DNA of 32,070 nt, taken from positions 1-32,070 of the IMG/VR virus record IMGVR_UViG_3300040811_001222; one strand, written 5' to 3'. Below, piece after piece: positions 2,806 through 27,386 of the stretch. The translations under genes were made by a program, and so were the position numbers. The stretch comes from a virus. The notes under the pieces are model-generated. The model was given only the letters and a program-made list of their open reading frames with translations. It ran no database searches and had not been told where the DNA came from. Every line of letters begins with the position of its first letter. The first letter of the stretch is position 1.

Positions 2806-2829
2806 CCCGTGGTCCGTGGGCCCTGAACC
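2806..2829 (+). repeat. CCGTGG-type dispersed repeat, non-coding copy
   Basis: Reads CCCGTGGTCCGTGGGCCC, then TGAACC. It is a non-coding member of the dispersed family described at 12894-12918. Confidence 0.6.
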
Positions 2830-2852
2830 GATAGTACCCGCTAACAAACTAT

Positions 2853-2912
2853 GCGATGAGGCCCTTGAATCACCGCAAATTTTGCGGCGATGAGGCTCTT
2901 GAATCTCCGCAA
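2853..2912 (+). repeat. 26-bp direct repeat, two copies
   Basis: The unit GCGATGAGGCYCTTGAATC followed by WCCGCAA occurs at 2853-2878 and 2887-2912, a 34-bp period, with 24 of 26 positions identical. Between the copies CCGCAAA and TTTGCGG (2872-2886) form a short perfect hairpin. It could be a protein-binding repeat; a small open frame through it is not convincing. Confidence 0.65.
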
Positions 2913-2936
2913 TGCCAACTATTCACGGCCCAAGGG

Positions 2937-2984: not shown

Positions 2985-3000
2985 TACTGGAGTGCATATT

Positions 3001-3790: not shown

Positions 3791-3922
3791 TTATTGACGG
3801 CCCATGAACTTGATGGTTTCGCGGGCCTCTTTGAGCTTAGCTCTGGTGCTCATGAGTTCGGCGAAGATGTAGGCGTTGAACATGAATAAGAGGGCGAATA
3901 GGACTACATGGTCTTCTGACAT
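3791..3922 (-). CDS. 43-residue single-TM peptide
   Basis: Starts MSEDHVVLFALLFMFNAYIF: a short acidic N-terminus, one strongly hydrophobic segment (residues about 6-23), then a basic helical tail (TRAKLKEARETIKFMGRQ). The layout suggests N-out or N-in single-pass inner membrane insertion. The ATG lies 19 bases inside the end of the 72-aa gene, and the stop is directly followed by the AAGGAG of the next gene. Small TM phage peptides act as lysis regulators, superinfection blockers or envelope modulators; nothing here picks one. Confidence 0.65.
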   Translation of the reverse strand: MSEDHVVLFALLFMFNAYIFAELMSTRAKLKEARETIKFMGRQ

Positions 3923-4122
3923 AGGTATTTCTCCAGTTGCTCTTTCTCGTGGTTGAGGCATCGGTTTTCGGTTTCGAGGCGGATTATTTCTTCATCCACC
4001 CCAACGATGGCGTCTCGCAGGGCGTCTTTTGCAATGGATCTGGCCAAAGCATTATCGCCCGGGGCGAGGGACGCGATTTTTACTAGGGCGTCGGAGAGTT
4101 TCTCAGCTAATTCAAGACTCAT
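3904..4122 (-). CDS. 72-residue helical protein, unknown function
   Basis: A helical protein (MSLELAEKLSDALVKIASLA at the start) ending in a likely coiled coil (DEEIIRLETENRCLNHEKEQ). The ATG at 4122 has GGGAG about nine bases upstream. A GTG start 66 bases further upstream would include a copy of the dispersed CCACGG repeat in frame, but it has no ribosome site and overlaps the 49-aa gene extensively. Function unknown. Confidence 0.65.
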   Translation of the reverse strand: MSLELAEKLSDALVKIASLAPGDNALARSIAKDALRDAIVGVDEEIIRLETENRCLNHEKEQLEKYLCQKTM

Positions 4123-4261
4123 GCGGCCACTCCCAACTGGCGTCCCCAGTCCCGTGGGCCGTGGCACATCCTGTAATGGCACTGACACTGGTGAAAAAGC
4201 AAAGGCATATCACGATGTAGATACAAAGTATCGTCACCGGACGGTGTTTTTCGTCACTCAT
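4112..4261 (-). CDS. 49-residue membrane or lipoprotein-like peptide
   Basis: Starts MSDEKHRPVTILCIYIVICL: a charged N-terminus with Lys-His-Arg, a hydrophobic stretch to about residue 29, then SAITGC, a weak lipobox, and a short polar tail ending WEWPHES. It fits a signal-anchor peptide or a very small lipoprotein. The ATG overlaps the stop of the upstream 106-aa gene (ATGA), and the end overlaps the next gene by 11 bases. The size and position could fit an outer-membrane spanin partner, but a spanin is expected by the lysis genes 23 kb away, so this is only a possibility. Confidence 0.6.
   Translation of the reverse strand: MSDEKHRPVTILCIYIVICLCFFTSVSAITGCATAHGTGDASWEWPHES
4151..4165 (+). 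repeat. CCGTGG-type dispersed repeat
   Basis: CCCGTGGGCCGTGGC just upstream of the 72-aa gene start and inside the 49-aa gene, where it is not in the frame shared by the other coding copies. It is in that frame only in the unlikely GTG extension of the 72-aa gene. See 12894-12918. Confidence 0.5.
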
Positions 4262-4920: not shown

Positions 4921-5092
4921 TGAAGAGCGCGACTGGGACGAGTTCTTTGATGAGTGTGATGATCTCGACTTAGATTTTGCGGAGGACCGTGACGCGTGGT
5001 CCGAGGTCCATGAGAAGTTAAACTTTTACGAAGAGCGGTTGCAGATGATTGAGCGTGCGGTGTTGCGGCTGAAGGAGAAGGGTGGGGGCTAG
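4910..5092 (+). CDS. 60-residue highly acidic protein, unknown function
   Basis: Residues 5-35 contain 16 Asp or Glu (ERDWDEFFDECDDLDLDFAE), followed by a helix that is likely coiled coil (FYEERLQMIERAVLRLKEKG). The ATG is inside the end of the upstream gene, with GGGAG in front. Its TAG shares the bases CTAG (5089-5092) with the stop of the opposing HNH gene. Strong acidity in a small phage protein can reflect DNA mimicry against restriction or other host DNA-binding proteins; this is a hypothesis only. Confidence 0.7.
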   Translation: MSNSEERDWDEFFDECDDLDLDFAEDRDAWSEVHEKLNFYEERLQMIERAVLRLKEKGGG

Positions 5093-5586
5093 TCTTCTTC
5101 GGGGAAGGAGTTGAGGTGGTAGGAGATTTGTCGGCACCAGAAGTAGAGCTCGCCGTCGTCCATGTTGCCTTTAACTTTATTTGCACGTTCGCAGACTAGG
5201 CGGATGTTTTCTTTGGTATAGCCGATGCTTGGGTCGATCCGATCTACGCTGATAGAGGTTCCGCGTCTTTCGGCGCTGTTTGAGTGTTCGCCATCGTTTG
5301 CCCACGTCATTGGCATTGAGGTTAGGGCGCAGAGGCCGTGTTGTTTTTTGTAGAGGGCAATGAGGTCTTCCGGGGTTATCCCAATTTTTTCTTTACGGCG
5401 CGTGGCCCGTGATCGGAGATCAATAAAGCGTCGCCGTAGGAGCGTTTCTGGGGATCGGAAAATGCGTCCTTTAGTCCTAACATTGTCGCAATCTTTGCAC
5501 ATATTAGTGACGCCGTTCTTAGATCTTTTAGAGCGCGTGAATTTATCTTCGGGCTTTTTTTCGCCGCAGGAATAACATTGCTTCAT
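5089..5586 (-). CDS. HNH endonuclease with N-terminal zinc ribbon
   Basis: A 165-residue nuclease. It begins with a CxxC...CxxC zinc ribbon (MKQCYSCGEKK, then MCKDC) and ends with an HNH-type core: GLCALTSMPM, SVDRIDPSIGYTKENIRLVC, NKVKG. The usual His of the first motif is not the classical DH pair but VDRIDP, as in several phage HNH proteins. Such enzymes nick or cut double-stranded DNA; roles include homing and helping terminase. The start at 5586 has GGGGGAG upstream. It contains a copy of the CCACGG repeat in frame (SRATR). Homing versus packaging role is unresolved. Confidence 0.85.
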   Translation of the reverse strand: MKQCYSCGEKKPEDKFTRSKRSKNGVTNMCKDCDNVRTKGRIFRSPETLLRRRFIDLRSRATRRKEKIGITPEDLIALYKKQHGLCALTSMPMTWANDGEHSNSAERRGTSISVDRIDPSIGYTKENIRLVCERANKVKGNMDDGELYFWCRQISYHLNSFPEED

Positions 5587-5610
5587 CGATCGCTCCCCCA
5601 AGCGAAAGAA

Positions 5611-5682: not shown

Positions 5683-5836
5683 CTTTTTGCTCTACTTTTA
5701 TGTAATACGAAACAAAGGCGTCGCAGCTTGAGCAGGTGAGATTTGACTCTATGTCGTAGGTGTCTTCCTCTTCCAGATCAATATCTCCGCCCCATATTAG
5801 CTCGCCGCCGCAATACCAGCAGGTTGTTCTACTCAT
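5666..5836 (-). CDS. Small zinc-ribbon protein
   Basis: A 56-residue protein with two CxxC knuckles: TCWYCGGELIWGG and LTCSSCDAFVSYY, about 25 residues apart, a classic zinc ribbon. The middle is acidic (DIDLEEEDTYDIESN). The start at 5836 overlaps the stop of the Cas4-like gene as ATGA. This CWYCGGELIW-type ribbon is of a kind common among small phage proteins; the job is unknown, perhaps modulation of host polymerase or of the neighbouring nuclease. Confidence 0.75.
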   Translation of the reverse strand: MSRTTCWYCGGELIWGGDIDLEEEDTYDIESNLTCSSCDAFVSYYIKVEQKDDKLA

Positions 5837-6654
5837 TCTTCTGCCTCCGTAGATTCTACTTTGTACCAGTGTGAGCAAGGCTCCGTGGCCCGTGATCCGT
5901 GTTTCGTGCAGAACCATTTTCGTTTAGCGACGGGCTTAGCGTGCTTACAGGTTTTGCATTCGACGGAGATGGGTAGTGAAGTTTCCCCGTGCGGCCAGCA
6001 GTGTGGCTTGAAGTTGCAATAGCGGCACTCAAAGGCGAGGGGGTTGTTAGAGACGCGCTTTGCGGAACCGTAGCGCACAACGCGGTTTGTTTTGGCGAGC
6101 AACCGGATGTAGTAGTCGTAGTCAAATTCGATGTGTTCGGCGTGGTACACCGAGGTGTTTTTGTTGTAGGCGATCACCCATGACTCGTAGTAACCGGAGA
6201 GCCCCATGAGTAGTTGCACTTGTGCGAAGTAGACGGGGTGGCTGTAGTAGACGCCGCGGGTCTTGAAGGCTGTCCACTTTTTGTCGTTCATTGATTTAAT
6301 TTCAAGGATGGCGGGCACAGGGGCTTTTTTATCGGTAGCCATGACCCCGTCGGCGTGGCCTCGCAGGTGCCCTCCGAACGCTGTATATTCCCACTGCTTT
6401 TTGGTTTTAGGATCGACTTCGTAGACAAGGACGCCTGCCTGCTTTAGGTCTTTGACAACCTTCTCTTCGATGTCGTGTCCGAGTTCAAAGATTCGTAGTA
6501 CGGCGGCAGGGATGCTTTTTTGGGGATAACCACGAAGGCTGTATTGCAGGGCAGCTTCGCAGGGGTTTCCCACGTTGCTTGCACCGATGTACGAGCGTCG
6601 CTCTCGCTCAGCATTTTTCTCGGTGCCCAGATCGATGGCTTTAATTAAGTCCAT
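5833..6654 (-). CDS. Cas4/RecB-type PD-(D/E)XK exonuclease with Fe-S motif
   Basis: A 273-residue nuclease. Motifs in order: FELGH with His60, HADGV with Asp102, LEIK with Glu118 and Lys120, and QVQ at about 145-147, the RecB-family set. Cys32 (NPC) plus Cys210, Cys213 and Cys219 (ECRYCNFKPHC) match the four iron-sulphur cluster ligands of Cas4 and AddB. A further set, Cys233, Cys236, Cys249 and Cys260, suggests an added zinc site. Such enzymes resect DNA ends, for recombination or host DNA degradation. The start lacks a strong ribosome site. An in-frame CCACGG repeat lies in the tail (HGSRATEP). Confidence 0.87.
   Translation of the reverse strand: MDLIKAIDLGTEKNAERERRSYIGASNVGNPCEAALQYSLRGYPQKSIPAAVLRIFELGHDIEEKVVKDLKQAGVLVYEVDPKTKKQWEYTAFGGHLRGHADGVMATDKKAPVPAILEIKSMNDKKWTAFKTRGVYYSHPVYFAQVQLLMGLSGYYESWVIAYNKNTSVYHAEHIEFDYDYYIRLLAKTNRVVRYGSAKRVSNNPLAFECRYCNFKPHCWPHGETSLPISVECKTCKHAKPVAKRKWFCTKHGSRATEPCSHWYKVESTEAEE
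5881..5909 (+). repeat. CCGTGG-type dispersed repeat, coding copy
   Basis: CTCCGTGGCCCGTGATCCGT and following bases, in the C-terminus of the Cas4-like gene; encodes HGSRATEP between two predicted zinc cysteines. See 12894-12918. Confidence 0.6.
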
Positions 6655-6669
6655 GTTAAAATGACTCTT

Positions 6670-6686
6670 GGTCCGTGGGCCGTGGA
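6670..6686 (+). repeat. CCGTGG-type dispersed repeat, non-coding copy
   Basis: GGTCCGTGGGCCGTGGA in the 63-bp divergent spacer between the Cas4-like gene and the plus-strand gene at 6718. It is one of the cleanest tandem copies and lies outside genes. See 12894-12918. Confidence 0.6.
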
Positions 6687-7504: not shown

Positions 7505-7655
7505 AATCAAACTTTGCCTTTAAAAAGTCATGCCATATATGAAGGTTGTCAAAATCTTCTTTATGGATGGGCTTATTAGTTTCGTACTTTTCGAGAATTT
7601 TTTCATACGCTTCGTGAAACTTAACCATCATAGAGTTAAAGTTTGATTTGCTCAT
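7464..7655 (-). CDS. 63-residue helical protein, unknown function
   Basis: A Lys/Glu-rich helical protein (MSKSNFNSMMVKFHEAYEKI at the start). The ATG overlaps the stop of the RHH gene (ATGA), so it is coupled to that possible regulator. No family is recognised. Its end overlaps the DUF3310 start. Confidence 0.65.
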   Translation of the reverse strand: MSKSNFNSMMVKFHEAYEKILEKYETNKPIHKEDFDNLHIWHDFLKAKFDYEREKNAKDVGRS

Positions 7656-7885
7656 ATTGAAAAGCTCTTGGAAGTCAGCGACTTCTCACCATTTTCTTTC
7701 TTGAACGCCTCAACCTGCTCCGCAATATAGTCTTGATCATTGTGGGACAAGTTCTCTGATTTCCATGCCTCATGCATGTAGCGCAACTGGCCGCTAAGCG
7801 TCCGCCCTTCAACCCGGGCAATCACCACCAACTCTTCATAAACCTCACGTGGCAAAAGCACGGATTTCCATTTTGTCGTATCCAT
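7652..7885 (-). CDS. Ribbon-helix-helix-like DNA-binding protein
   Basis: A 77-residue protein starting MDTTKWKSVLLPREVYEELV. A strand (WKSVLLP), a helix (REVYEELVVIARVEG) and a second helix after the turn RTLSGQLRYMHEAW form a ribbon-helix-helix as in Arc/CopG proteins. It may repress early or replication genes. The start at 7885 is decided by a perfect AAGGAGGT eight bases upstream, which itself lies over an alternative ATG at 7903 that has no site. Positioned right after DNA polymerase. Confidence 0.72.
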   Translation of the reverse strand: MDTTKWKSVLLPREVYEELVVIARVEGRTLSGQLRYMHEAWKSENLSHNDQDYIAEQVEAFKKENGEKSLTSKSFSI

Positions 7886-7931: not shown

Positions 7932-9836
7932 TCATTCAACCTCAACGCATTCGCCCCATGATGGTCCGATTTCTACGTCACACTTGTTGGGAACCTGCAA
8001 CGGCAGGGCATTTTCCATGATGCTGGACAATTTCTTGGCGTGCTCGGCGTCTTGGACAGCAAAAGCAAGCTCATCGTGGACCTGTAGCATGGGGATTTCG
8101 CCCTCTCGGCACACGTTAATCATGGCCTGCTTGGTCATATCCGCGGCAGACGCCTGAATTAGGCGGTTTAGCGCCTTGTAGGTGTACGCCCGGCGTAGTC
8201 TGGTCGTTGGGCCGTGAGTCGCGATGGCTTCATCTTTAGGCAACGCCTTGTGCATATCAAAGCTATCGGGCTCCCAGAGGTCGAAACGGCACTTCCTGCC
8301 CTTTAAAGAGCGCAAAGACCCTGAGGATCGGGGGTCGTCCAGACGTTGCTGTACGCCCTTCATGAGCCCTTTAACGAAGGGTACGGACTTGTGGTACTGC
8401 TGCATCAGTTCTTTGGCTTCGGCCACGGAAACATCCAGTTGGTCTGACAGCTTGTTGACGCCCATGCCGTAGATTAGGCCGAGGTTGATAACCTTGGCTT
8501 GTTTCCTTGGTATTTTTGCCATTTCCGCCACCATGTTGTGGAAGTCGGCGTCGGGGTTTTCGTTGTACATCTGCACAAATTCATTGACCCCGGGCATGTC
8601 TATCCCCTTGTAATCACTAAAGTTTTTAGCGAAATGGACCAAGATCCGTGGTTCCTGTTGCGAGAAGTCAATGGCCGCCCACTGAGTGCCTTCCTCGGGG
8701 AGGAACAGCCCGCGGAGCATGGGGCCCAGTACGGGATCCCGTGCGGGTATCTGCTGTAGGTTGGGCGAGTTCATAGAGATACGGCCTGAGACGGTGCCCC
8801 CGTCGTCAGAGCGTAGCTGGTTGATGTGGCTGTGGATCCGGCCACCATGTACATACTTCAGGATGCCGTCGATAAACGTGCCGTTCATCTTGTTGAGGTT
8901 GCGGGCCTTTACCACCATCTGAGCAAACTCGTGGGGGTGTTCTGACAGGAACTGTTTAGTAAAGCTTGGAGAGCCCTTCTCAGTTTTGGGGTATTTTAAT
9001 GAAAGTGAGTCAAAGGCCTTAGCCACGGAGGTGGCCGCCCAGATATCCACATCCATACCTGCAAGGCTCTTGAGGTGCTTACGCACCGCCTTCTCTTCTT
9101 TCATGACGTGCTGTTTGGTGCGCTCCGCCTTGTCTAGATCCACCCGGATGCCCCGCATGGTCATCTCTGTCAGGTAGGGCAATAGCTCCATTTCTAGCGC
9201 CCAGATGTCCCACAGGTCTTCCCGGTTCAACAAGGTCTTGAAGTGGTTCCATAGCTCCAGCGTAAGCTCAGCATCGGTCTCCCCGTAGGGGCCAACATAC
9301 ATGGCTGGGAGTTTCCACATCTCACCCTTGGGATCAACGCCAAAATCTTTGGCCGCCTCAACAAGGGTCTTTTCGGATTTTGTCTTGCCAAGGTATTCGT
9401 AGGACAGCGCGTTCAGGCTGTAGCTGAATCGGTTCTCGTCAATCAGGCTGGCGGTCATCATGGTGTCGATGATTCTGCCGTTGACGGTAAAGCCGTGGGC
9501 CCTGATCCAACCCAGATCATACTGGGCGTTGTGCATTATTTTGTCGGCGGGGCTTTCAAAGACTTTCTTCAGCCACTTGCTGACAATGCGGAAGTCGAGG
9601 TTACCGCCGCCTGCGTGACCGACAGGGATATACCCTTTCCAGCCCGCAACGGCGACGGCATAGCCTACTATCTCACCGTCCTTGGTAGGCCACCCGGGGC
9701 CTTTGTTCTTTAAGTTGGGGTCCCGGGTTTCCACGTCGATGGCAATTTCTTCAGCTTCAAAGATATCCGGCAATTCCGCAGGGGGAACCCAGTCGGTTTT
9801 TGGCGGAAACATCGCCATCTGTAGTTTGCCTGTCAT
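7932..9836 (-). CDS. polA: DNA polymerase, family A (PolA-like)
   Basis: A 634-residue replicative polymerase with proofreading. The 3'-5' exonuclease motifs are present: AIDVET (Asp34, Glu36), HNAQYD (Asn103, Asp107) and YGETD (Tyr184, Asp188). Polymerase motif A is AIDFSQQEPR with Asp390, motif B is RKQAKVINLGLIYG, motif C is QVHDEL with Asp588. There is no 5'-3' exonuclease domain. Leu452 takes the place of E. coli Phe762, a known marker that alters nucleotide selectivity and correlates with phage lifestyle. AAAGGAAAG precedes the ATG. Coupled to the zinc-ribbon gene by ATGA. Confidence 0.97.
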   Translation of the reverse strand: MTGKLQMAMFPPKTDWVPPAELPDIFEAEEIAIDVETRDPNLKNKGPGWPTKDGEIVGYAVAVAGWKGYIPVGHAGGGNLDFRIVSKWLKKVFESPADKIMHNAQYDLGWIRAHGFTVNGRIIDTMMTASLIDENRFSYSLNALSYEYLGKTKSEKTLVEAAKDFGVDPKGEMWKLPAMYVGPYGETDAELTLELWNHFKTLLNREDLWDIWALEMELLPYLTEMTMRGIRVDLDKAERTKQHVMKEEKAVRKHLKSLAGMDVDIWAATSVAKAFDSLSLKYPKTEKGSPSFTKQFLSEHPHEFAQMVVKARNLNKMNGTFIDGILKYVHGGRIHSHINQLRSDDGGTVSGRISMNSPNLQQIPARDPVLGPMLRGLFLPEEGTQWAAIDFSQQEPRILVHFAKNFSDYKGIDMPGVNEFVQMYNENPDADFHNMVAEMAKIPRKQAKVINLGLIYGMGVNKLSDQLDVSVAEAKELMQQYHKSVPFVKGLMKGVQQRLDDPRSSGSLRSLKGRKCRFDLWEPDSFDMHKALPKDEAIATHGPTTRLRRAYTYKALNRLIQASAADMTKQAMINVCREGEIPMLQVHDELAFAVQDAEHAKKLSSIMENALPLQVPNKCDVEIGPSWGECVEVE

Positions 9837-9991: not shown

Positions 9992-11490
9992 AGGTCGTAT
10001 GCTCTCATGTAGTCTTCTGGTTCAACGATATACAGGTTCTTGGACGCACGAGTGACACCGACATAAAAAACCCGGTGTAGATCATCCCCCGATTGATCCA
10101 TTGCTGCTGCGGTAAGGTCTGTCATGAGCACGGCATTCTCGGCTTCACCGCCTTTAGTTCCGTGGATCGTGGACAGACGTATTCTTGGTTGGGCATTGAA
10201 CTTCTCGCCCCGGCGGAGAAGCGCTGTGATATAGGCGCGATCCCCTTCTGGTATTTTATCCATGGCTTCATGCCAAATCATGGATTCGTCAGCAAGTAGC
10301 CCAAAATTATCTTTAAGGTCTTGCATTGTTAAAAGCGCTTCGTCTGGGGCCTTAATGTTTTTGTGGCCTCGCTTTATCTTATCGCCGTTGCCGCTCATGT
10401 AGCCATAAATACACTGTGCAGTTCCCGTGGGCACCGCTCGGCCTTTCCGCAAAGCTTCCCAGCCATTGATCGCAATGGACATTTTTTCACCAATAGACCG
10501 CCCTGAATTCTGTTTCTCATACAGGTATCCGTTGCTTTTTAAAACCTGTTGTATGGGGTATAGCATGTAGTTTGCTTGCGCCATGATCAACCATGTTCCT
10601 TTTGACATATCTATGGAGCTTATGTCGTAAGTCCGAAACACGTTGCCCTCTTCTTCCCGCGGGCGGTAAACCTTTGGGAATCTGTTTTTGATACGGCTTG
10701 AAATCCTTGACGCCACATTGTGTATCGATTTAGGCACCCGGTAACTTTGCTCCAAAACTTCGGCACCTCCGGGCAGATTGATGAAATGATCAACATCTGC
10801 GCCAGCCCAACGATAAATAGCCTGATCGTCGTCCCCGGCGCAATACATTTTCTCGGAGCACTCATCTAATTTGTGGGCAATGTCCCACTGTAAGGGAGAC
10901 AAGTCTTGTGCTTCATCAAGGAAAACCAGTTTAAAGTTGGGCAGAAAGACATGGGCCTCATCGATAAAATTCTGAAGCATGTCTGTGAAATCAATTAAGC
11001 CGAATGCTTCTTTATAATTCTGATAGGCATCCGCAACATACTGGACCTCTGTCCATGTGAAGTTAATATCGCTTTGATTATATGTTCGGTGGAGCGACTG
11101 CTTTTTTGCTTTAGCTAAATTTATCAGCGCCAAAATAGGATGGTCAGTATGCTTAAACGTCGTGCTTTCCTCATCGTTAGAAGAGGCTGTTAGCTGAAAT
11201 CCAATTCGTTCGGAAAGGGCTCTGTAATGTTCGCCGCTCATCATTTGGTGTTCCTTTACAGAAAGCATGCGGTACGCCAAAGAATGAATGGTTCGGAAGT
11301 AAGGCAAGTCTTTTTCAGGGTTAAGCTTAAAGCGCTTAGTCGCCCGCTCCTTTGCCTCGTTTGCAGCCTTTTTAGTAAACGCAAAAAACCCTATTTGGTT
11401 CGGGGAAATGCCCTCCTCCATGGCCTTATCAACCATGTTAAGGAGGGTGGTAGTTTTCCCTGTCCCCGGTGGGCCGAATATACGGAACAT
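9988..11490 (-). CDS. SF1 DNA helicase, UvrD/Rep-like
   Basis: A 500-residue superfamily 1 helicase: Walker A GPPGTGKTT (residues 6-14), motif Ia near FAFTKKAANEAKERA, Walker B FLDEAQDLSP (Asp192, Glu193), motif III GDDDQAIYRWAGA (219-231), SYRVP for motif IV, TIHGTKGGEAENAV for motif V and VFYVGVTRASKNLY for motif VI. It should unwind DNA 3'-5' at the fork. It is shorter than UvrD (about 720 residues), lacking much of the inserted subdomains. Its start overlaps the primase stop as TAATG. Confidence 0.95.
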   Translation of the reverse strand: MFRIFGPPGTGKTTTLLNMVDKAMEEGISPNQIGFFAFTKKAANEAKERATKRFKLNPEKDLPYFRTIHSLAYRMLSVKEHQMMSGEHYRALSERIGFQLTASSNDEESTTFKHTDHPILALINLAKAKKQSLHRTYNQSDINFTWTEVQYVADAYQNYKEAFGLIDFTDMLQNFIDEAHVFLPNFKLVFLDEAQDLSPLQWDIAHKLDECSEKMYCAGDDDQAIYRWAGADVDHFINLPGGAEVLEQSYRVPKSIHNVASRISSRIKNRFPKVYRPREEEGNVFRTYDISSIDMSKGTWLIMAQANYMLYPIQQVLKSNGYLYEKQNSGRSIGEKMSIAINGWEALRKGRAVPTGTAQCIYGYMSGNGDKIKRGHKNIKAPDEALLTMQDLKDNFGLLADESMIWHEAMDKIPEGDRAYITALLRRGEKFNAQPRIRLSTIHGTKGGEAENAVLMTDLTAAAMDQSGDDLHRVFYVGVTRASKNLYIVEPEDYMRAYDL

Positions 11491-13034
11491 TAGAACGGCG
11501 CTTCTTGACGTTGTTCCGTGAACCGTGGTGCGAGGACTCTGCTCTGTGTCACGTCATCCATGGGTATCTTCCACACACGCACAGGTTTGCCTTTAATCTT
11601 CAGGAGCGCTGACTCTCCATTGATGTCCCGTAGGCGCTGAGCGATCTTGTGTGTACGAAACTCAGTGAATCTGTTTTTACGCAAAAAGCTCTCAAAGTCC
11701 TTCAACCTAAAGTGGATGGTATTGTGCTCATCATCCACCCATGGACGGCGCAACAGTATTTCTTCCCGGTCCTCTGCTCGTTGCGTAGAGGTGCAGAATT
11801 CATCAAGGAATTCGTAAAGCTGGCCATTGATGCTGGCGTCTTCAGAAACCTCCATGATGTTGCCTTCGGTCTCTATCATCTCCTTCATCAACTGGTTGAT
11901 GCGTCCTTCCCACGATCGCTTGGCCATGGTCTGTGGCATGAAGTTAAGCTGTTCCACGCAAGCTTTTTGGAAAGCTGATTGATTCAGCAAAGCATCGGTG
12001 TCTAGCTCAAGGGGTATGCCGTTGACATCAATAAACCACACAGGGGGTATAGAGTTGTACTTGCGAAGGTTAGCCACCGCCGCATCGGAGACCGCGGAGC
12101 CGATACCAAACTTCCGCGTCTGGCAAAGCTCTTTGTTGCAATACGGCTGGATAGGCGGTTCACCACAGCGGAACGCGTAATCCTTTTTCTCCAACTGCTT
12201 TACGACAAGATTCACCTCTGACAGTGGTAGCGGTGGATCCACATACGCCATGTTGTAGTTGAGGATTTCATCCTGCCAGTTGTCCGGGTGCGCCTTACGG
12301 AGGTAGACCCCTATGTTGAAGAGTCCGTTGTTTCTTCCGCCTTCGGAGATTTTGTTAGCACATAAGGTTTGGAGGCAGGGCGGACCGTCCACGATCGGAC
12401 TGTTGTCGAAGGATTGTTTGGTGAGCGCCTCAACTTGTTCCGGCGTTTGCGCATGCGTTTGATAGAGGCCAAAAAATTCGTCCAACGTAGCCGCTGAACC
12501 GTCATCATTTATGGCATAGCGCAACCCTTCCTCCGCATCGTAATACGGCATGTTAAGGAAGTTGCCGACATCCCCCCGATCAAGGTACAGCTTAATTTGT
12601 TTGGGGAATATCTCGCAGGAGCCATGGCCTAGCGCGCTGGCTATATGCTGGAGAGTGTCCCTCATTCTTTTCGCGGTAATCCATTCCTGAGAAAACAAGA
12701 ACAGGTGAGCACCGCCTGATTTTGAGCGGCATACTACCAGAGGTAGCCCGGCTCTACGAATTTTTTCTATTAGTCGTTTATGGTCCAGCGGGTACTCATC
12801 GATGTCGATGCACCCCCATTTACACATGTCATCCTCGTTGATTGGGATGATCCCGATACCTGCGCCTTTCCCCGATAGGTGCTGTTCAAATTGCTCCGTG
12901 GTCCGTGGTTCGCGGACTACCCGAGCTTTGCCAACATTTTTGCCATTAGATTTTTTGCTATCGATTTCAAAGGTGCCGTAGGCGCATTTTAGGCCATCAA
13001 AAATGGCCGCAAATTGTTTTGTTGCGTCTGACAT
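11490..13034 (-). CDS. PrimPol/archaeo-eukaryotic type primase
   Basis: A 514-residue primase of the AEP superfamily. Catalytic motifs are visible: CIDIDEYP with Asp77 and Asp79, CRSKSGGAHLFLF with His110, and GSCEIFPKQ at 138-146. The region after residue 215 (RNNGLFNIGVYLRKAHPDNW) resembles the primase C-terminal helical domain, with Cys220, Cys225, Cys290, Cys299 and Cys304 as possible metal ligands. It would make primers and perhaps extend them. It sits in the operon between SSB and helicase. A clear copy of the CCACGG repeat (REPRTTEQ) lies at residues 41-48, before the core. Confidence 0.88.
   Translation of the reverse strand: MSDATKQFAAIFDGLKCAYGTFEIDSKKSNGKNVGKARVVREPRTTEQFEQHLSGKGAGIGIIPINEDDMCKWGCIDIDEYPLDHKRLIEKIRRAGLPLVVCRSKSGGAHLFLFSQEWITAKRMRDTLQHIASALGHGSCEIFPKQIKLYLDRGDVGNFLNMPYYDAEEGLRYAINDDGSAATLDEFFGLYQTHAQTPEQVEALTKQSFDNSPIVDGPPCLQTLCANKISEGGRNNGLFNIGVYLRKAHPDNWQDEILNYNMAYVDPPLPLSEVNLVVKQLEKKDYAFRCGEPPIQPYCNKELCQTRKFGIGSAVSDAAVANLRKYNSIPPVWFIDVNGIPLELDTDALLNQSAFQKACVEQLNFMPQTMAKRSWEGRINQLMKEMIETEGNIMEVSEDASINGQLYEFLDEFCTSTQRAEDREEILLRRPWVDDEHNTIHFRLKDFESFLRKNRFTEFRTHKIAQRLRDINGESALLKIKGKPVRVWKIPMDDVTQSRVLAPRFTEQRQEAPF
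12894..12918 (+). repeat. CCGTGG-type dispersed repeat, best coding copy
   Basis: CTCCGTGGTCCGTGGTTCGC and on, encoding REPRTTEQ on the minus strand. Other copies, all with the same strand: 2806-2829, 4151-4165, 5398-5416, 5881-5909, 6670-6686, 8201-8223, 11514-11535, 16127-16149, 17464-17486, 19241-19267, 21523-21547, 26594-26612. The ten copies in confidently called genes all use the frame CCA CGG RCC ACG (Pro-Arg-x-Thr); 2806 and 6670 are non-coding and 4151 is in a different frame. Confidence 0.65.
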
Positions 13035-15985: not shown

Positions 15986-18900
15986 CGATGCCGCCGCTCT
16001 GTATTAACCCCGAGATAGGATCTTCAGGGAACAACGCCGCGTACTGAGCCCGTTGCTGTGGTGCAGGCGCCGCCGGAGCAGGAGCCGCTTGAGGCGTAGG
16101 CATTGACACCGGCGGCATTGACACTTGGGCCGTGGGCCGTGGTGCGGCCATGCGCCTATCTTCTTCCAATAACCGACGAGCCTCTTGTTCCGACAGTGCC
16201 TGTTCTTCCGGCGTTAAGACAAAGGGTGACTCTTGTGGTTGTTCTGCTTCCTGTGCTTCAAAACCGTCTTCGCCCGGCTCTTGCCCAGCGACATAGGCGC
16301 GTCGAGAGAACACAAACCCTTTGCTCATGGCCCAGTCTTTCGCCAATTGGTACAGATTTTTTGCTTCTCGCCTATTGCGAGGAGTCTTTAGAAGGCGAGC
16401 CAACGTCTCGGGATCTTGCAACAACATCTTAAATGCTTTCATGTTGTTAATGCCCGACTTGCTAACAAAAAGGGCTCGTAATGCACGCGAGCCTGCCGCT
16501 GCTGCGATCAAGCTTGCTTCGCTACCCCCAACGATGGAAGATGCGGTAGTACCTAATTTTGCACCTATGATCCGTAAAGCCAGATCCCTTAGGGGGCCTT
16601 CTTGCTTAATTAGATCGTCTAGGCCGCCCTTGGCAGTCAAGCTTTCTAGGTTTCTCATTTCAGCCAAGTATCGCTGAATGGTCTCAGCCTCTGTTTTGCT
16701 CAACAAATTTTTGCTGATAAGCCAATCAGCCGGGGTGACTTGAGAACCTGAAGAAGTGGGGGCAAACAAGCTATCGTACATGCGAGTAGGGTTTAGGTCC
16801 CCGTCACGATTGCTGGATCGCGTGATCGCCCAATCAAAGACTCCTGACTTTAAGCTCTCTCTCGCTTCTTCCCTAATTTTAGAATCTACATCAGACCTAT
16901 TGATCGTTGTTAAGATTTGATTCAACTCAAACAAAGGCCGCTGTGAAGATAGCGCTCCTCTAATTACAGCCGTAGGTGTTTCATCGCCCTTGTCGATAAG
17001 CCTTTTAAAAGACAGTCTCTCTCTTGCCTCTTTTGCAGATTGATCTGCTTGCTTACGAGCAGTCATTAAAAGCTCATAGGCGGCATCGGCATCGCGAAGA
17101 TCCATTTCCAATTGACGAGGGAAAATTGCCAAGAGTTGTTGGTTAGTAGGGTCCTCTAACCACCGAGTAAGTTCTGGAATGTTTAACGAGAGTTCGCCAA
17201 CTTCTTCTCCCTCACGAGGACGCAATGCGGTTGATCTAATGTTACGAAGCGCACGCTCTAAAACGTCCGGGACATCGCCAACGATTCTTCCAACATCAAT
17301 GTACCCGGGAAGATCTTCAATCAATTCTATGTCAGGGTTGACCTCGTCTCGCAAAAACTGACCTACCCTAGCTATTTCTTTTGCGTTTCGATACACCCGA
17401 TCGCTACGCCCCGTAAACAGCGAGCGAATAGATTCTTCGGGGCTTAATCTATCCGCCCCGGTAGTCCGTGTTCCGAGGACCGCGGCAGGAGCAGAAGCGC
17501 GCGTGAAAACATCGTTAAGGGCTGAAGAATAAGCGCGCGCCATGGTTAACGCCGCTCGTATGGTGTCCGCACGATCTCCCCCTATATCGCCAACCGCCCC
17601 GGTCAAATCTTGGTCCACTAACTCCGCAAACCTGTTTGACAATCTAGCGTCGTTGTATTTGGCATTTGCCTCTAACTCTCTTCCAGAAGCTAATGCTCGT
17701 GATCGAATGCCACTTAACTTATTGGAAGAGATCACTATAGGTTCGCCAGCTTGTCTAAGCTCGTCCACCAAAATCCTAAGATCCACTATTGTGTCAGCTA
17801 GTTGATCCTCTGCGGTTCTTTCTACAACGCGTGCGCCAACATTGGCTAAGTCGTCTTGAGCCCTAGCAGAGCTTAACCGGTTGTTAAGAAGTTGACGGAT
17901 CTGCTTTAGCTCTTCCATCCTGAACTGATCTTCAGGGATGTTTCTTCGCCCGCGAGTAGCTTCTATAAGGTCATCAATAGTCCTTAGATCGCTTCTAACA
18001 GACATCACTTGCTCTTCTACGGGCAGCGAAGAAAAACGAGGGCTGTTGCTACCCAAATCCAACAAGTTACGCATACCGTTAACCGTTCTTTGCGGCATAC
18101 GGTCCAAGATAGATTGTCTTTGTTGCGCCAATCTTTCAATACGGGCTTCTATTCTAGCTGTTTCTTGAGAAGACTCCGTTATGCCCGCAGAAGGTCCTCG
18201 CTTCCCTAATCGACTTGTATCGATTCCAGAATCCTCTAAAACTTCTTTTATGAAGTCGATGCTGGTTTGCAAAGGTCTTGGGAGAGCTTTTAACTCTGCA
18301 CGACTTTCTGGGAGAAGATCTACCCAGTCGAAAAGATTCGGAATCTCACGGATCTCTCCCACTTCTTCGCCTTCTTCCGGGAAAGCACGGAAAACAGAAA
18401 TTTCGGTGTTAGGGATTTGGTTGTATAAAAATCGTTCTTTTGCACGTGCGGCAGTTAAAGCCTGCGACAGATTCTCTTGTAACGCTCTGCCTACCGCTTC
18501 TTCTGTCTCCCCCGTTCCAATCCTATTAGCGGCCTCTAAAACCTTTTGAGCCTGCTGGGATAGTTTTTGCGTGAAGGCTTGTTCCAACGTGTCTTGAAAA
18601 GCGCCTTCAACTTGGCGCAATGCCCCGGCATCTCCCACCATGGCAAAAGCGGCAATTAAATTCTTGTAACTATCTATTGCACTGCGAAGGCCTTGTTTTC
18701 CCTGCTCTTTTAATTCGGGGAAAATGCCCGCCATCTCATCTTCGATGCGAAGCAATGTTGGGCTTTGAGATAACGTGCCTGATGTAAATTCTCTGAATTG
18801 AGAGTTGGACGTGAGATCTTCTAAAATTTGCGCCACTTTTTCAGGGTCTTCCCCAGCTTGTTGGAGACGCTCTTCAATAATGTTTACAACGTCCACCAAA

Positions 18901-20066
18901 GCTTGGTTGTCACCTTTCCTTTTGAAAAGGTCCGCCACACCTACATTACTACCCGGGGTAAACGCATCTTTTATTTTTTTCAACCCGTCATAAATGGCTT
19001 CTCTGTTCTTTATTGCGGTGTACGGGAGACCTATGACCGCAGGGCCTGCCAAACCTACTGCTATGCCCCCGGCAATTTCCGCAAGAGGAGCATATTCTCC
19101 GTCCATATATTCTTCAGAAAAGTACCGGGCCCCTGTGGCGCCTCCGGCAAATCCCGCTTCTTCCAAAAGAGTGCGTCCGGGCTTTTCTGCGGCCCTTTGT
19201 CCGATTCGGGGAATGTTCCTTTCAGCAGAACTGATAAGGCGCGTGGTCCGTGGGCCTTTAGCCGTGGCTTTTTTTATAGCCGCCTTTGCCGCACGCTTTG
19301 GTAAGGGGCCTGCCTCAAAAGCTTTTTCTAGCTTAATGTTTTTAAGTTCCAGAAGATTCTCTAAATATTTTCCTGCGCCAAAATCTAGTGCTTTTTTGGT
19401 GGTCAAGAATGGAAATGGTAAAAAAGCAGCGCCAATCGCGGCAGTTTCACCCACTCTTTCCATGCGAGCACCTTCTCCGGGTGCGACAAGGTCTGGTTCC
19501 CCAAAGAAACGATCGCGTATTTCTTCTATGCCTTCTTCACCCAGAATTTGGCCACCGATCCCTGTTGCTACTGGGATAAGGAATTTTGCACCAATAGCAA
19601 AAGGGTTTACTGCGGGAATTGGTTTTTGTAAGGCGTAACCTATCTTGGCTCCAGTTATAAAACCAGCTAATCCGCCCGCTTGAGGCGCTATTTCTTTTTT
19701 AAACCCTTTTGCAAAAGAGCCTTCTCGCATGGGCTTGTTTTCAGGGTTTCGTAGGTAACGGCGCAAGATTTCTGCATCCGTTAATTGAACCCCCTGATCT
19801 TCGGCTGGAGTAAGCTTAGACTGCCCAAGAGCGATGGATTTATACGGGTCTTCGTCCTTCCCGAATAAAGAAGGATTTTTTTCCTTTAATGCAAAAGCGG
19901 TATCAATCGCCAGCATCATTTCGGGCGTTATATTTTTAGGCAGCCCTTCTTCTTGCGGATTTCGTCGAAGATTCTGCTCATATAAGTCTGAAGAAATTTT
20001 GGGATAAACAATGTCTAAAACGACTTCATCCTGCTCTTCAGACGGCTCAATCACTTGATCGACCAT
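15969..20066 (-). CDS. Large internal virion or ejection protein
   Basis: A 1365-residue protein. The N-terminal 400 residues contain four Gly/Ala-rich hydrophobic segments (GGLAGFITGAKIGYALQ, FAIGAKFLIPVATGIGGQIL, TAAIGAAFLPFPFLTTK, IAGGIAVGLAGPAVIGL); the middle is long and helical with coiled-coil stretches; the C-terminus is Pro/Ala-rich. This matches podovirus internal virion proteins that leave the head to form a channel across the host envelope. Two in-frame CCACGG repeats occur (KGPRTTRL; GTRTTGAD) and one near the C-terminus (APRPTAQV). Start overlaps the next protein's stop. No lytic transglycosylase motif seen. Confidence 0.65.
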   Translation of the reverse strand: MVDQVIEPSEEQDEVVLDIVYPKISSDLYEQNLRRNPQEEGLPKNITPEMMLAIDTAFALKEKNPSLFGKDEDPYKSIALGQSKLTPAEDQGVQLTDAEILRRYLRNPENKPMREGSFAKGFKKEIAPQAGGLAGFITGAKIGYALQKPIPAVNPFAIGAKFLIPVATGIGGQILGEEGIEEIRDRFFGEPDLVAPGEGARMERVGETAAIGAAFLPFPFLTTKKALDFGAGKYLENLLELKNIKLEKAFEAGPLPKRAAKAAIKKATAKGPRTTRLISSAERNIPRIGQRAAEKPGRTLLEEAGFAGGATGARYFSEEYMDGEYAPLAEIAGGIAVGLAGPAVIGLPYTAIKNREAIYDGLKKIKDAFTPGSNVGVADLFKRKGDNQALVDVVNIIEERLQQAGEDPEKVAQILEDLTSNSQFREFTSGTLSQSPTLLRIEDEMAGIFPELKEQGKQGLRSAIDSYKNLIAAFAMVGDAGALRQVEGAFQDTLEQAFTQKLSQQAQKVLEAANRIGTGETEEAVGRALQENLSQALTAARAKERFLYNQIPNTEISVFRAFPEEGEEVGEIREIPNLFDWVDLLPESRAELKALPRPLQTSIDFIKEVLEDSGIDTSRLGKRGPSAGITESSQETARIEARIERLAQQRQSILDRMPQRTVNGMRNLLDLGSNSPRFSSLPVEEQVMSVRSDLRTIDDLIEATRGRRNIPEDQFRMEELKQIRQLLNNRLSSARAQDDLANVGARVVERTAEDQLADTIVDLRILVDELRQAGEPIVISSNKLSGIRSRALASGRELEANAKYNDARLSNRFAELVDQDLTGAVGDIGGDRADTIRAALTMARAYSSALNDVFTRASAPAAVLGTRTTGADRLSPEESIRSLFTGRSDRVYRNAKEIARVGQFLRDEVNPDIELIEDLPGYIDVGRIVGDVPDVLERALRNIRSTALRPREGEEVGELSLNIPELTRWLEDPTNQQLLAIFPRQLEMDLRDADAAYELLMTARKQADQSAKEARERLSFKRLIDKGDETPTAVIRGALSSQRPLFELNQILTTINRSDVDSKIREEARESLKSGVFDWAITRSSNRDGDLNPTRMYDSLFAPTSSGSQVTPADWLISKNLLSKTEAETIQRYLAEMRNLESLTAKGGLDDLIKQEGPLRDLALRIIGAKLGTTASSIVGGSEASLIAAAAGSRALRALFVSKSGINNMKAFKMLLQDPETLARLLKTPRNRREAKNLYQLAKDWAMSKGFVFSRRAYVAGQEPGEDGFEAQEAEQPQESPFVLTPEEQALSEQEARRLLEEDRRMAAPRPTAQVSMPPVSMPTPQAAPAPAAPAPQQRAQYAALFPEDPISGLIQSGGIASLAS

Positions 20067-22174
20067 TACTGAACCCCTGTGCCGTAACCCGGTTGGGTTG
20101 TCCTTTGCCCACTCAAATCGAAACGGTTTTGTGCGAATTGCTCTTGCCCAATCGCGGGTATGTCGCCTAGTAAAGTGCGCAACAATTCAATTTCTCGAAG
20201 ACTGTTTTCAGCTTCTCTTCGCTGAGTAGAATCCAACCCGCCTCGCGCTAAATCCCCTATGGTAGTGGTATAAAGCTGATCTGTTACTGCTTTAATCTGA
20301 GACAACTTTAATGCCTCTGATTCTGGGTTGGCGAAGAAGGTATCGGGATCTGGGAACAATTCAGAAGCCAATTGCATTTCAGCAACAGGGAATCGTGGAT
20401 TAGTCACCAACGCCACTTTTCCTATAAACCGAAGTGCTTTCAAATATTGTCTGGCCGCCAAGGTGGTAGCATCGTCAGCGTCCAAACCACTTTGAAAATA
20501 GCCAAAGTACTTGTCCATTGCGGCTGTGAATCCTGCTCCCATGCCGGTGCCTTCTTTAGCTGCCGCATAGGCGGATTGTTTGACCGCATTAAGAGCTTTA
20601 GCACCTTCCTCTATGTTTAACGGCTCCCCGGTGGCTTCTTCAATTGCTTGTTGATTTAAAGAAGCGGTAGACAAAATACTGTTTGTGTACGACGGGTCGG
20701 CTAAAACACCTTCAGATGGGGACGACTGACCTTCTTGCATGTTGCTAAGAAGCCTTCGGTATTTGTTTTCCGAAGATATGCTTTTCTGTAGCTCAGCAAC
20801 TTGCTCCGGTGGCGCCACCGCAGTGCTGTACCCTTCTCCGGTGGGCATCTTAACCGCCGTGCCGTCAGGGCCAATATACGTTTTACCGTTGTCAAAACTT
20901 TCAACAAGCTCTCGACCGCCGTCAGGAGCCTGAATGATGTAGTTTGTTAAAGACTCTGCCCCGTCGGAAGTGATCTTTCTAAAAGTGTATTGGCCCGTAC
21001 CCTTGTAGTTTTCATAGGTCGCAAGGTCCGCGGCGTTGTTCACATTAAGAACGGCCACCTCATTACCTTCTCTATCTAAAACAACACGCTCATCAAGTCC
21101 CTTTGCCGCAAGTCTTGACGCCGTTGCCATGCGTGAAATCAAAAGATCATTTAAGTACTTTTGTTCTAACTGGGCTTGCTCCATGGCACCAGACAGCGCG
21201 GCACTCTTAACGCCTTGCTCTAGTTTACGTTGTTCCGCGGCCCGTGCTTGAAAGGCCGCCGGTAGCGTAGAAGCCGCCGCCGCTAACTGTGCGCCAAAAG
21301 GTTGCCCCGCTACACTTTTACCTGTTCTAGGGTCCGTGCCTGAAGCCAAAGATAATCCTGCCTGCGCCAAGTCAAAATAGGCTTGTGCTTTGTTATATCT
21401 TTCTTGATCTTCTGTTTGACCTAGAATTTCTTGATATAAAGGCAACATTTCATTGTAGTAGCCCTTTACAGAGTCACCAAAAGTGCTCCCAGACAAAAGC
21501 ATTTCAGCGGGCCCTGTTTCTTGGTCCGTGGTCATTGGTTCGCGCCGCGTTGCTGTTACTTCAATGGGTTGTAACAAGTCCGCGTCTTGGCCCTCATCCA
21601 ACAACGGAGCAAAAGCAGGAGGCATGGCGATACCGCCGAGTGCATAACTTTGCACGGCACCGCCTTGGTTAAAATTTTGAGGAACGGGAGCCTCCTGCGC
21701 CCCGGCCATCATGAGGCTTCCTACGCCTTGGCCCATTTCATTAGGCATACCGCCTTCTGTAGTCATTTCTACATCGCCAATAATGCCCTGCATTAACTCG
21801 CCGATGCCGCTGTTCATAGCCCCTTCTTCCGTCATCATGATGACAGGCTGTACCATGGCCAGCACGGACTCTGGCGTAGCTTGTGCGTCTTCCATGCCGA
21901 CAAAAGCCCCAAGCTCTTCCACGCGAGCCGAAATTGGCATCTGGTTGCCTCTGATGGCGTTGATCAAATCTTCAGCAGATTCTGCCTGATCTACATTTGC
22001 CATCATGTCCTGAGCATACTGTGCGCCCAGTTGCTCGGCTTGTTGAGCGGCCATCATTTCTGCTTGCTCAACCATAGCGGCCTCTTGAGGCATGGGCTGG
22101 GCCATCATGTCTTGAGGCATAGGTTGCGCTGGGCCACCGGCTTGTCTAAATAGAGGTCGGTTATATACGTTCAT
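20066..22174 (-). CDS. Large Ala/Gln/Met-rich structural protein
   Basis: A 702-residue protein starting MNVYNRPLFRQAGGPAQP, with an N-terminal Met/Gln/Pro-rich stretch (residues 15-55), a central helical region and Gly/Ala segments. It resembles a structural protein found in marine podovirus-like phages between the tail genes and the internal virion protein. It may be an ejection protein or scaffold-like component; no enzymatic motif is visible. Its ATG overlaps the stop of the upstream structural gene (ATGA). An in-frame CCACGG repeat encodes REPMTTDQ. Confidence 0.68.
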   Translation of the reverse strand: MNVYNRPLFRQAGGPAQPMPQDMMAQPMPQEAAMVEQAEMMAAQQAEQLGAQYAQDMMANVDQAESAEDLINAIRGNQMPISARVEELGAFVGMEDAQATPESVLAMVQPVIMMTEEGAMNSGIGELMQGIIGDVEMTTEGGMPNEMGQGVGSLMMAGAQEAPVPQNFNQGGAVQSYALGGIAMPPAFAPLLDEGQDADLLQPIEVTATRREPMTTDQETGPAEMLLSGSTFGDSVKGYYNEMLPLYQEILGQTEDQERYNKAQAYFDLAQAGLSLASGTDPRTGKSVAGQPFGAQLAAAASTLPAAFQARAAEQRKLEQGVKSAALSGAMEQAQLEQKYLNDLLISRMATASRLAAKGLDERVVLDREGNEVAVLNVNNAADLATYENYKGTGQYTFRKITSDGAESLTNYIIQAPDGGRELVESFDNGKTYIGPDGTAVKMPTGEGYSTAVAPPEQVAELQKSISSENKYRRLLSNMQEGQSSPSEGVLADPSYTNSILSTASLNQQAIEEATGEPLNIEEGAKALNAVKQSAYAAAKEGTGMGAGFTAAMDKYFGYFQSGLDADDATTLAARQYLKALRFIGKVALVTNPRFPVAEMQLASELFPDPDTFFANPESEALKLSQIKAVTDQLYTTTIGDLARGGLDSTQRREAENSLREIELLRTLLGDIPAIGQEQFAQNRFDLSGQRTTQPGYGTGVQ

Positions 22175-25180: not shown

Positions 25181-25215
25181 TATTTCCATCCCATAGCGAT
25201 GCTGTATTGTACCAT

Positions 25216-25512
25216 CTAAGGCGTAGAAACCGTTACTTCACCGACCAAACCTTGGCCAGAAACCCCTGCTGGGTGCGGTTTATACGCGATGGTAATCTTT
25301 ACAATCCCGTCTTGTTGAAAAAGTGCGCCCTCTTCCAAGTTGTAGTCATTCTGTTGCAAGTTGGTCAAGGTCAATTCTGTGCCCCGCATGTCCCCGGGGT
25401 TGTTAAATTGGCGAAGGAAAATAGAAAAAGATCGAACAACATTAGACATATAGGTTGCATTGTATATCTCCGGAGCGTTCGGAAAATCCGGTAAAACAAG
25501 CTTCCGGCTCAT
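25216..25512 (-). CDS. 98-residue conserved structural-module protein
   Basis: Starts MSRKLVLPDFPNAPEIYNAT. It has a helical N-half (YMSNVVRSFSIFLRQFNN) and a beta-rich C-half (GIVKITIAYKPHPAGVSGQG). The gene sits between the virion protein and the tail/stabilisation protein, with the start overlapping that gene's stop (ATGA). I do not recognise a named family; by location it is a minor virion part or assembly factor. Confidence 0.7.
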   Translation of the reverse strand: MSRKLVLPDFPNAPEIYNATYMSNVVRSFSIFLRQFNNPGDMRGTELTLTNLQQNDYNLEEGALFQQDGIVKITIAYKPHPAGVSGQGLVGEVTVSTP

Positions 25513-27386
25513 CGACGACCGTCCTGTCTAATGTCGACACGAGGCGATCCCAAACGCCATTGTACGTCTAATCCATCACTTTCCAGTTTTAACGCCAAAC
25601 TCCGTCCCCGAAGACGAACGTGTACCTGCTCCGTGAACTGCTCAACAGGGACCGTTGCCGATCTGGCCACGTTTTTAGAACTCGTCGCCGAGTAATTAGC
25701 GCCGGGAAAATTTCTAGTCTGAAGAATAAAATTAACCGAGGGGCTCTCGGCAGAAGACCCCGCAAAAGTCACATCAGGGATCATTCGTCGGATAAAAGCA
25801 AAATTCTCTCCATCCCCAATGTCCACTTGGCTAGACTCAATGTAAGCATTAATCGCCGTGTTGTTCTCCCCGTCGTTTAACCCTAGTTCTTGCAGATATA
25901 AATAACCATCTGTGCCCGCCGCCAAGGGATAATCATTAATTCCGCGGTCAACCCAAGCCGTTCTGGCCATTGTTCCGTAGAACCAAAGTTGTTGTAAGTG
26001 GTTGTAAACAACATAACGATCAACTTCTTCGGAATCCGCCGAAGGGTAAAACCACCAAATTTCGTTAAAAGACGAGTTTAATGCCGCAAATACTTTTTCT
26101 GCCTGACCGTCGTTAAAATCTTCAAAGACATAATTACGAACAGTACACGGAAGTTTTTGAACCTGCCCCGTATACATATAAAAATCTTGCATCCCCATCC
26201 AAAAAACAGTGTCATCCATTGCCTTAACAGCATTCGGCGACATGATCGTGATGTTCTCTGAAATTAAATTAATGCCAAAAGTGAACGGCGGCCCCAAAAA
26301 TTGCATGGCGTGCAAGGAAACATCTGTAAACACCAGAACCTGCTGTCTCGTCTCAACCGCCGCAACAATCTCCGAACCAGAGCCAATACGGAGGTCCCCC
26401 GCCGTGTTCGTCGGCAAAGACTGCCACGTAGTCGGGCTTTCTTGATCACTGAACCGAATCAACAGCGGATCCTGCGTGCCAATATCATTCTCAGGGTCAC
26501 AGCCAAACGCAATAATGTGCCTGTCCCGGTCAGAAACCAGTACCTGCTTGGCAATCGTCGGCGTCGTAGCATCCGCACCAGCTAAATCAGAAAGGGCCGT
26601 GGCCCGTGTGCTAACACCCGCGCTGTTATCCCAATAAAAAATACCCGCGTCACGCGCATTAATGATTAAATCTTCACCAAAATTGTCGCTGCTCCACAAA
26701 CGTAAGGCCGCACCTACCGCTAAAAGAGAACTGGCCGAGCCCCACGTGCCACGGGACCACGTCCCGGCGCCCCAGCCAGTGCCTGCAACGGTGGTATCTA
26801 GTCCCGTATTTATTTGGTAAGCCCCTACAACAGAAGATCCCCCATTGCCGGTGTCGCTAGCATTTGCGGTAAGTACAGCCCCAGAAACGTCTTTAGCGAT
26901 GATTTTGTAACTATTTAAGTCAATAACCTCAGCGATTTGATATTCTTGGTTTAGCGCATCAGCGATGATGTTTCCGCCCAAGGACACTGCTCCACTAAAC
27001 GTCACAAAATCATTAGCAATTGCGCCGTGGTTGTTGTCACTTACGGTAATCGTTGAGGACCCGTCCGTGGCTGAAAAAGTAACATCTCCAGCGGCAGTTG
27101 TAAGGCGGATCGGCGTTATATCGTTATAACCCCCGCCTTGTTCAATGTAATATTTTAAGTGTGTTCCTACGCCGTTTAATTTTTCTCCACTTAAAGACAC
27201 AAACGGCTTTATTTCTCGCGCCGTACCTAAGTAAGTCGAGCCACTATATTTTTCCCAGCCGCCTATTTTTTCGGGAGTCCCAAACCTAAACCGGATCTTG
27301 TCACAATCATACCACCCTCCTTCGTTAGTATAGGAAGTTGTTTCTCTAACAATACCCGGTCTAAACTGTAACTTTGTTAAAGGCAT
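25509..27386 (-). CDS. Probable tail tube/DNA stabilisation protein
   Basis: A 625-residue beta-rich protein. The N-terminus RPGIVRETTSYTNEGGWYDC and the following IRFRFGTPEKIGGW are typical of a phage family related to P22 gp10 or T7 gp12 type tail proteins, which close the portal and hold packaged DNA. WYPSAD-type motifs (NEIWWFYPSADSEEVDRYVV) and many propeller-like repeats follow. The assignment to gp10/gp12 is by resemblance and position, not proven. An in-frame CCACGG copy encodes STRATALS. It precedes the spanin-like gene. Confidence 0.62.
   Translation of the reverse strand: MPLTKLQFRPGIVRETTSYTNEGGWYDCDKIRFRFGTPEKIGGWEKYSGSTYLGTAREIKPFVSLSGEKLNGVGTHLKYYIEQGGGYNDITPIRLTTAAGDVTFSATDGSSTITVSDNNHGAIANDFVTFSGAVSLGGNIIADALNQEYQIAEVIDLNSYKIIAKDVSGAVLTANASDTGNGGSSVVGAYQINTGLDTTVAGTGWGAGTWSRGTWGSASSLLAVGAALRLWSSDNFGEDLIINARDAGIFYWDNSAGVSTRATALSDLAGADATTPTIAKQVLVSDRDRHIIAFGCDPENDIGTQDPLLIRFSDQESPTTWQSLPTNTAGDLRIGSGSEIVAAVETRQQVLVFTDVSLHAMQFLGPPFTFGINLISENITIMSPNAVKAMDDTVFWMGMQDFYMYTGQVQKLPCTVRNYVFEDFNDGQAEKVFAALNSSFNEIWWFYPSADSEEVDRYVVYNHLQQLWFYGTMARTAWVDRGINDYPLAAGTDGYLYLQELGLNDGENNTAINAYIESSQVDIGDGENFAFIRRMIPDVTFAGSSAESPSVNFILQTRNFPGANYSATSSKNVARSATVPVEQFTEQVHVRLRGRSLALKLESDGLDVQWRLGSPRVDIRQDGRR

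Follow-up and report, generated by a model that had tools for sequence, protein, structure and literature searches.

We identified a dispersed 7-base repeat in a 32 kb stretch of viral DNA (IMG/VR virus record IMGVR_UViG_3300040811_001222; the whole stretch is called the window here) and in related phages, and we conclude, with a probability of roughly 0.85, that selection maintains these heptads as a nucleotide-level signal in the phage family. The repeat unit has the consensus YCACGRN and mostly occurs as two units in direct tandem, such that a matrix of the motif is best written YCACGRN-YCACGG. All of the evidence comes from sequence comparison, mostly of fragment contigs, and the related sequences are not independent samples.

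Searching the window for CCACGGRCCACGG with at most two mismatches returned 23 minus-strand matches and a single plus-strand match (26742-26754), 24 in all, compared to 0.98 on average, and never more than 4, in dinucleotide shuffles. With up to three mismatches there were 49 matches against 12.5 expected. The preliminary description of this DNA, which reported about 13 dispersed copies that always lie on one strand, thus recognized a real repeat and understated it: the count was too low, the strand ratio is 23:1 where about one match is expected, and the plus-strand copy at 26742 is an exception to the strand rule. Within called minus-strand genes we found 19 sense copies and one antisense copy, a clear excess over synonymous-codon shuffles (mean 1.2, maximum 5), which is the codon-preserving comparison that the description had proposed. 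Another check that it proposed, a weight matrix run on both strands, also gave a strong minus bias. A matrix trained on relatives only, with the window excluded, matched 34 minus-strand and 2 plus-strand sites, compared to 1.6 and 1.1 expected from a strand-specific order-2 Markov background. Base composition was rejected as the cause of the motif, as these Markov models predict only one or two matches.

Positions of the heptad copies and of related features. Coordinates refer to the window unless a locus or phage is named.
Feature	Position	Strand	Remark
Conserved non-coding element of ~270 bases upstream of terS (1818-2543)	2530..2800	-	Heptad polarity reverses here
Heptad run, non-coding, adjoining the conserved element upstream of terS	2800..2826	-	CCCACGGACCACGGGTCAGGG
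Heptad copy in ORF 3904-4188, unverified gene	4145..4164	-	
Heptad run, three units	4987..5013	-	CCTCGGACCACGCGTCACGG
Heptad copy, endonuclease VII-like gene 5089-5601	5400..5412	-
Heptad run, Cas4-type exonuclease gene 5833-6654, reads SRAT	5883..5909	-	Top synonymous-constraint peak of the gene
Non-coding heptads immediately upstream of the exonuclease gene start	6666..6685	-
Ribbon-helix-helix-like protein, 83 aa, conserved	7652-7903	-	Just downstream of the polymerase gene
Degenerate copy, DNA polymerase gene	8202..8219	-	ACTCACGGCCCAACGACC; relatives CCACGGGCCAACG; second synonymous-constraint peak
Degenerate heptads, DNA polymerase gene (CCA CGG ATC TTG)	8639..8658	-	First synonymous-constraint peak
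Copy in UvrD-like helicase gene (TCC ACG ATC CAC GG, STIHG)	10160..10172	-	Kept to ~55% identity; top synonymous-constraint peak
Heptads, C-terminal part of primase	11516..11535	-	Close relatives have a nearby copy in another alignment register
Weak copy, primase	11924..11936	-
Heptads, N-terminal part of primase (GAA CCA CGG ACC ACG GAG)	12896..12915	-
Heptads, large virion (DNA transfer-like) gene 15969-20066	16123..16142	-
Degenerate heptads, virion gene 15969-20066	17459..17485	-
Copy, virion gene 15969-20066	19241..19253	-
Copy, gene 20066-22174	21235..21247	-
Heptads, gene 20066-22174	21519..21538	-
Copy, virion gene 25509-27386	26597..26609	-
Sole opposite-strand copy	26742..26754	+
parS palindromes	L248:10796-10811, 10824-10839; also L251, L252, L260, L283, L292, L295, L296, L309, others
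GGGCCCACC repeat in phage 023Pt_psg01 (L232)	15431, 16244, 17001, 17784, 17839	one strand

In the replication module the heptads are scattered on one strand at a density of approximately one per kb. In the window, though not in two relatives, they are spaced more evenly than random placement would give. Runs of at least four units occur in the arrays of some relatives (e.g. L023, L327, L020) and not in the window. Two non-coding sites reported previously (2806-2829 and 6670-6686) were confirmed. The description had also assigned the coding copies to a single reading frame. A bias to frame 0 does exist, but the helicase copy reads TCC ACG ATC CAC, in another frame, and a copy reported at 4151-4165 as lying in a different frame is in fact in frame 0 of its open reading frame (4152-4164), for which no homologue was detectable among the relatives tested. 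Across the phage family, distinct aligned positions divide 13:10:6 among the three frames, and near-perfect copies divide 40:7:3, with frame 0 dominant. We propose that near-perfect copies prefer frame 0 because the resulting peptide, [PSTA]-R-x-T, needs no histidine and because invariant bases then fall at wobble positions.

As read from its sequence, the window is a piece of an uncultivated phage of approximately 60 kb that falls in the DSL-LC04 ('Dishuiviridae') group. No near relative at the DNA level was found in the phage collection searched. By protein, the window's polymerase and primase are closest to, or group with, Phage DSL-LC04 and the HTVC023P-type Pelagibacter phages, as does the terminase of a matching contig, L248. 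Phage DSL-LC04 is an uncultivated 61.5 kb phage from Dishui Lake, with a predicted gammaproteobacterial host, for which the family 'Dishuiviridae' was proposed (PMC10611076). Over 25 kb, the window is matched at 100% by a second contig, G003, which contributes a further 13 kb upstream; L248 comes from the same sample as G003, has an identical terS, and runs beyond terS to terL.

The motif and its strand bias extend across this family. In 80 loci fetched by their polymerase genes, we counted 333 copies (at most two mismatches) in the polymerase-sense orientation and 78 on the other strand, with about 18 expected per strand. The motif is present in relatives down to approximately 55% protein identity and in DSL-LC04 itself, and the AT-rich Pelagibacter-type phage 023Pt has zero copies in the 20 kb examined. 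When the whole viral collection (IMG/VR) was scanned for exact triple heptads, most of the loci recovered were from this family: about 20 of 32 had a terL, terS, or polymerase match in a first scan, as did 10 of 11 new loci in a second. Searching the open-access literature for the heptad in phages, we found nothing relevant.

We next consider how the coding copies are maintained. At the sites inspected, in the polymerase, helicase, primase N-terminus, and exonuclease, the copies lie in gap-free columns of the codon alignments and were made by substitution on pre-existing residues. The preliminary description had raised a mobile repeat that spreads in frame; as the homologue alignments are mostly gap-free, the copies are not insertions, and a mobile element is not supported at the inspected sites. 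The main support for nucleotide-level constraint is an unbiased scan of each gene for stretches with excess synonymous-codon identity. The motif sites were the top two stretches in the polymerase, the top stretch in the helicase, and the top stretch in the Cas4-type exonuclease; in the primase, they ranked third and fourth. In the helicase, 57 of the 61 aligned sequences retain TCC ACG ATY CAC, at amino-acid identities as low as approximately 55%; the string is found in relatives with 36% GC and in DSL-LC04, though not in 023Pt. Amino-acid function alone does not account for this pattern: homologues share the STIHG and PRT residues, yet the wobble positions are constrained too. A codon-identity test on the motif columns gave the same picture, as 0-17 of 152-603 circular shifts were equally extreme, but this test is partly circular because the columns were picked by the presence of the motif, and so the unbiased scan carries the argument.

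Across the loci compared, it is the position in the genome that sets heptad orientation, whichever direction the surrounding gene has. We designated the polymerase-sense orientation '+', de-duplicated clusters, and took the conserved element upstream of terS as the reference point. On the replication side of this element there are 81 '+' and 20 '-' clusters, whereas on the opposite side, to terL or the contig end, there are 2 '+' and 23 '-' (Fisher p = 2e-11, de-duplicated clusters). Past the start of terL, where few copies are available, the clusters number 11 '+' and 3 '-'. The distant, complete genome of DSL-LC04 agrees, with 15 '+' and 6 '-' followed by 0 '+' and 12 '-' across the terS element, although the genes annotated in its terS-terL interval all have the same direction. 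Most reversed copies are dense non-coding arrays upstream of terL; in 43 distinct loci, some of which were fetched by the motif itself, these arrays contain 182 opposite-strand and 15 same-strand matches. An orientation rule based on the coding strand or the transcript is contradicted by the terS-terL interval and by the opposite-strand helicase gene (14534-15985), which has no sense and seven antisense copies among 32 homologues. The polarity has exceptions. The exonuclease genes have a conserved antisense copy (17 antisense versus 42 sense), other exceptions are scattered, and several '-' copies between terS and terL have weak scores or fall within reading frames that are short and unverified.

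The element at which polarity reverses contains imperfect inverted repeats (CTATATAGTGTTTTCCC and others) that flank iterons, e.g. CGTTACC, and these iterons covary between relatives. The element resembles an origin of replication or a packaging site.

In 18 of 43 distinct loci we also observed an exact chromosomal-type parS palindrome (TGTTYCACGTGRAACA), which lies upstream of terL at a distance of 16-231 bases and often beside heptad arrays. Further copies are found at a promoter-like position (L262:677, L263:9133) and within a gene of three relatives (G001, G002, G008). The palindromes near terL possibly recruit host ParB.

What might such a signal do? We tentatively favor, at somewhat under even odds, a polar signal for directional DNA processing that would resemble Chi or KOPS in its logic. 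This reading is favored because of the nucleotide-level constraint, because the copies concentrate in the replication module, and because strand polarity depends on map position, with reversals at the terS element and at terL, and not on which way genes run. A phage-encoded DNA-processing machine would read the heptads in one direction, in the manner of RecBCD at Chi or FtsK at KOPS. One candidate reader is the UvrD-like helicase acting with the Cas4/RecB-type exonuclease, and another is the apparatus for recombination and packaging. Reading would protect phage DNA, or direct its processing, around DNA ends or restarts that may arise in the terS-terL region as the phage replicates and packages its genome. 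Several observations count against the proposal: heptad density is low in the further 13 kb known from this phage, a stretch of virion genes where a general protection signal would be expected as well; the polarity has the exceptions given above; and the known Chi and KOPS words are shorter and less degenerate. A more specific version is quite unlikely as it stands, namely that the phage encodes its own counterpart of Chi/RecBCD, in which a polar tandem-heptad word kept by synonymous constraint would let a phage helicase-nuclease distinguish self from host DNA and direct processing from the terS-terL region.

Among the options listed in the preliminary description, a Chi-like signal fits best with respect to constraint and map-set polarity, but a general host Chi is unlikely. 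On the latter account, the word would be the Chi of the bacterial host, over-represented so that the phage survives host RecBCD or AddAB, and Chi is indeed enriched in phages that lack RecBCD inhibitors (PMC3784561). However, we found no enrichment of the motif in 369 Gammaproteobacteria genomes (relaxed pattern) or in 150 Pseudomonadota genomes (exact pattern), sets that may not include the true host, and the known Pseudomonas Chi is a different word, GCTGGCGC (PMC5959072). We consider this explanation very improbable. The same genomes argue against the suggested uptake-type sequence, as the heptad is a phage word that is not enriched in the sampled Pseudomonadota. A gammaproteobacterial Chi-like word, GNTGGTGG, is strongly one-stranded (31:3) in DSL-LC04 (L231/L233, OR003939.1) and sparse in the marine relatives.

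The main rival to directional processing, which we regard as rather unlikely, is that the heptads are iterons bound by a phage DNA-binding protein. The array upstream of terL would be its principal site, serving as origin, centromere, or packaging site, and copies elsewhere would be secondary sites that organize or mark the DNA. Direct 7-bp tandem units do resemble the heptads bound by omega, the ribbon-helix-helix ParB of pSM19035, at its parS (PMC9499535), and the dense arrays and parS palindromes upstream of terL are consistent with a binding site. The window also encodes a conserved small protein with a ribbon-helix-helix match, albeit a sub-threshold one, whose WKS strand is invariant across the aligned family members. 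However, a ribbon-helix-helix protein with a similar strand is also found in heptad-less Pelagibacter phages, and DSL-LC04, which carries heptads, has a different strand; this protein is thus not supported as the specific reader. Binding sites alone also leave strand polarity over 30 kb unexplained.

Less probable again is the idea that the heptads were spread by mutation biased by replication direction, through slippage, through template switching, or by short-patch gene conversion with the arrays as donors, and then persisted neutrally in proteins that can accommodate them. The direction of replication would then account for map-dependent polarity, and similar GGACCAC heptad arrays occur on both strands in some unrelated bacteria, although these may be convergent. 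Neutral persistence is disfavored because the gap-free coding copies keep their wobble bases in deep relatives while adjacent codons vary. A role in RNA, as the site of an RNA-binding regulator or as a pause or processing signal on phage transcripts, ranks behind biased mutation and is decidedly improbable. Copies in the main operon are mostly sense, one lies directly before the exonuclease start codon, and the TAACTGA heptamers of Beggiatoaceae, which form intergenic direct repeats, were proposed as sites for a post-transcriptional regulator (PMC4679880), but the opposite-strand helicase, with its antisense copies, and the arrays that lie reversed before terL argue against an RNA or pausing signal.

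Bacterial chromosomes are known to carry dispersed polar signals, among them Chi and KOPS, and phages borrow the Chi of their hosts. Like Chi (e.g. GCTGGTGG, read by RecBCD/AddAB), the heptads are dispersed, over-represented, strand-polar, and situated within coding sequence. The polarity of KOPS, the sequences that orient FtsK, is set by map position and reverses at fixed points; heptad polarity is likewise map-set and reverses at fixed points, whereas the sequence, its length, and the phage setting differ. Cyanobacteria have short tandem heptamers that are mainly intergenic. These and the Beggiatoaceae repeats share with the heptads tandem 7-base units scattered through a genome, but have been described mainly between genes, whereas the phage heptads are mostly coding, map-polar, and constrained at wobble positions. 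The concentration of heptads between replication and packaging functions recalls Chi in phages; in lambdoid phages, Chi sites cluster between the origin of replication and cos (PMC3784561). However, a Chi word has 5-8 bases and the heptad word is a 13-base degenerate tandem that also forms dense arrays and is not enriched in the sampled bacterial genomes. The pSM19035 parS shares contiguous 7-bp direct repeats with the heptads, but it is a compact centromere of other sequence, whereas the phage copies are also dispersed in genes and strand-polar. If the heptads are indeed a word of the phage family's own, with silent sites kept over deep divergence and polarity that reverses at the terminase region, they would point to an unrecognized system of DNA processing or self-recognition. 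This hypothesis is directly testable. The phages concerned are widespread, aquatic, and largely uncultivated, and the heptad provides a sequence signature for the group.

Repeats were also noted in two other genomes. In a Deltaproteobacteria MAG (G024, 1.5 Mb; locus L149), the same heptad pair occurs 159 times in near-exact form, with copies on both strands, compared to 2 for a control pattern, and these are intermixed with GGACTAC variants. Phage 023Pt_psg01 has five one-strand copies of a different repeat, GGGCCCACC, between terS and terL, which suggests that lineage-specific repeats occupy this same place.
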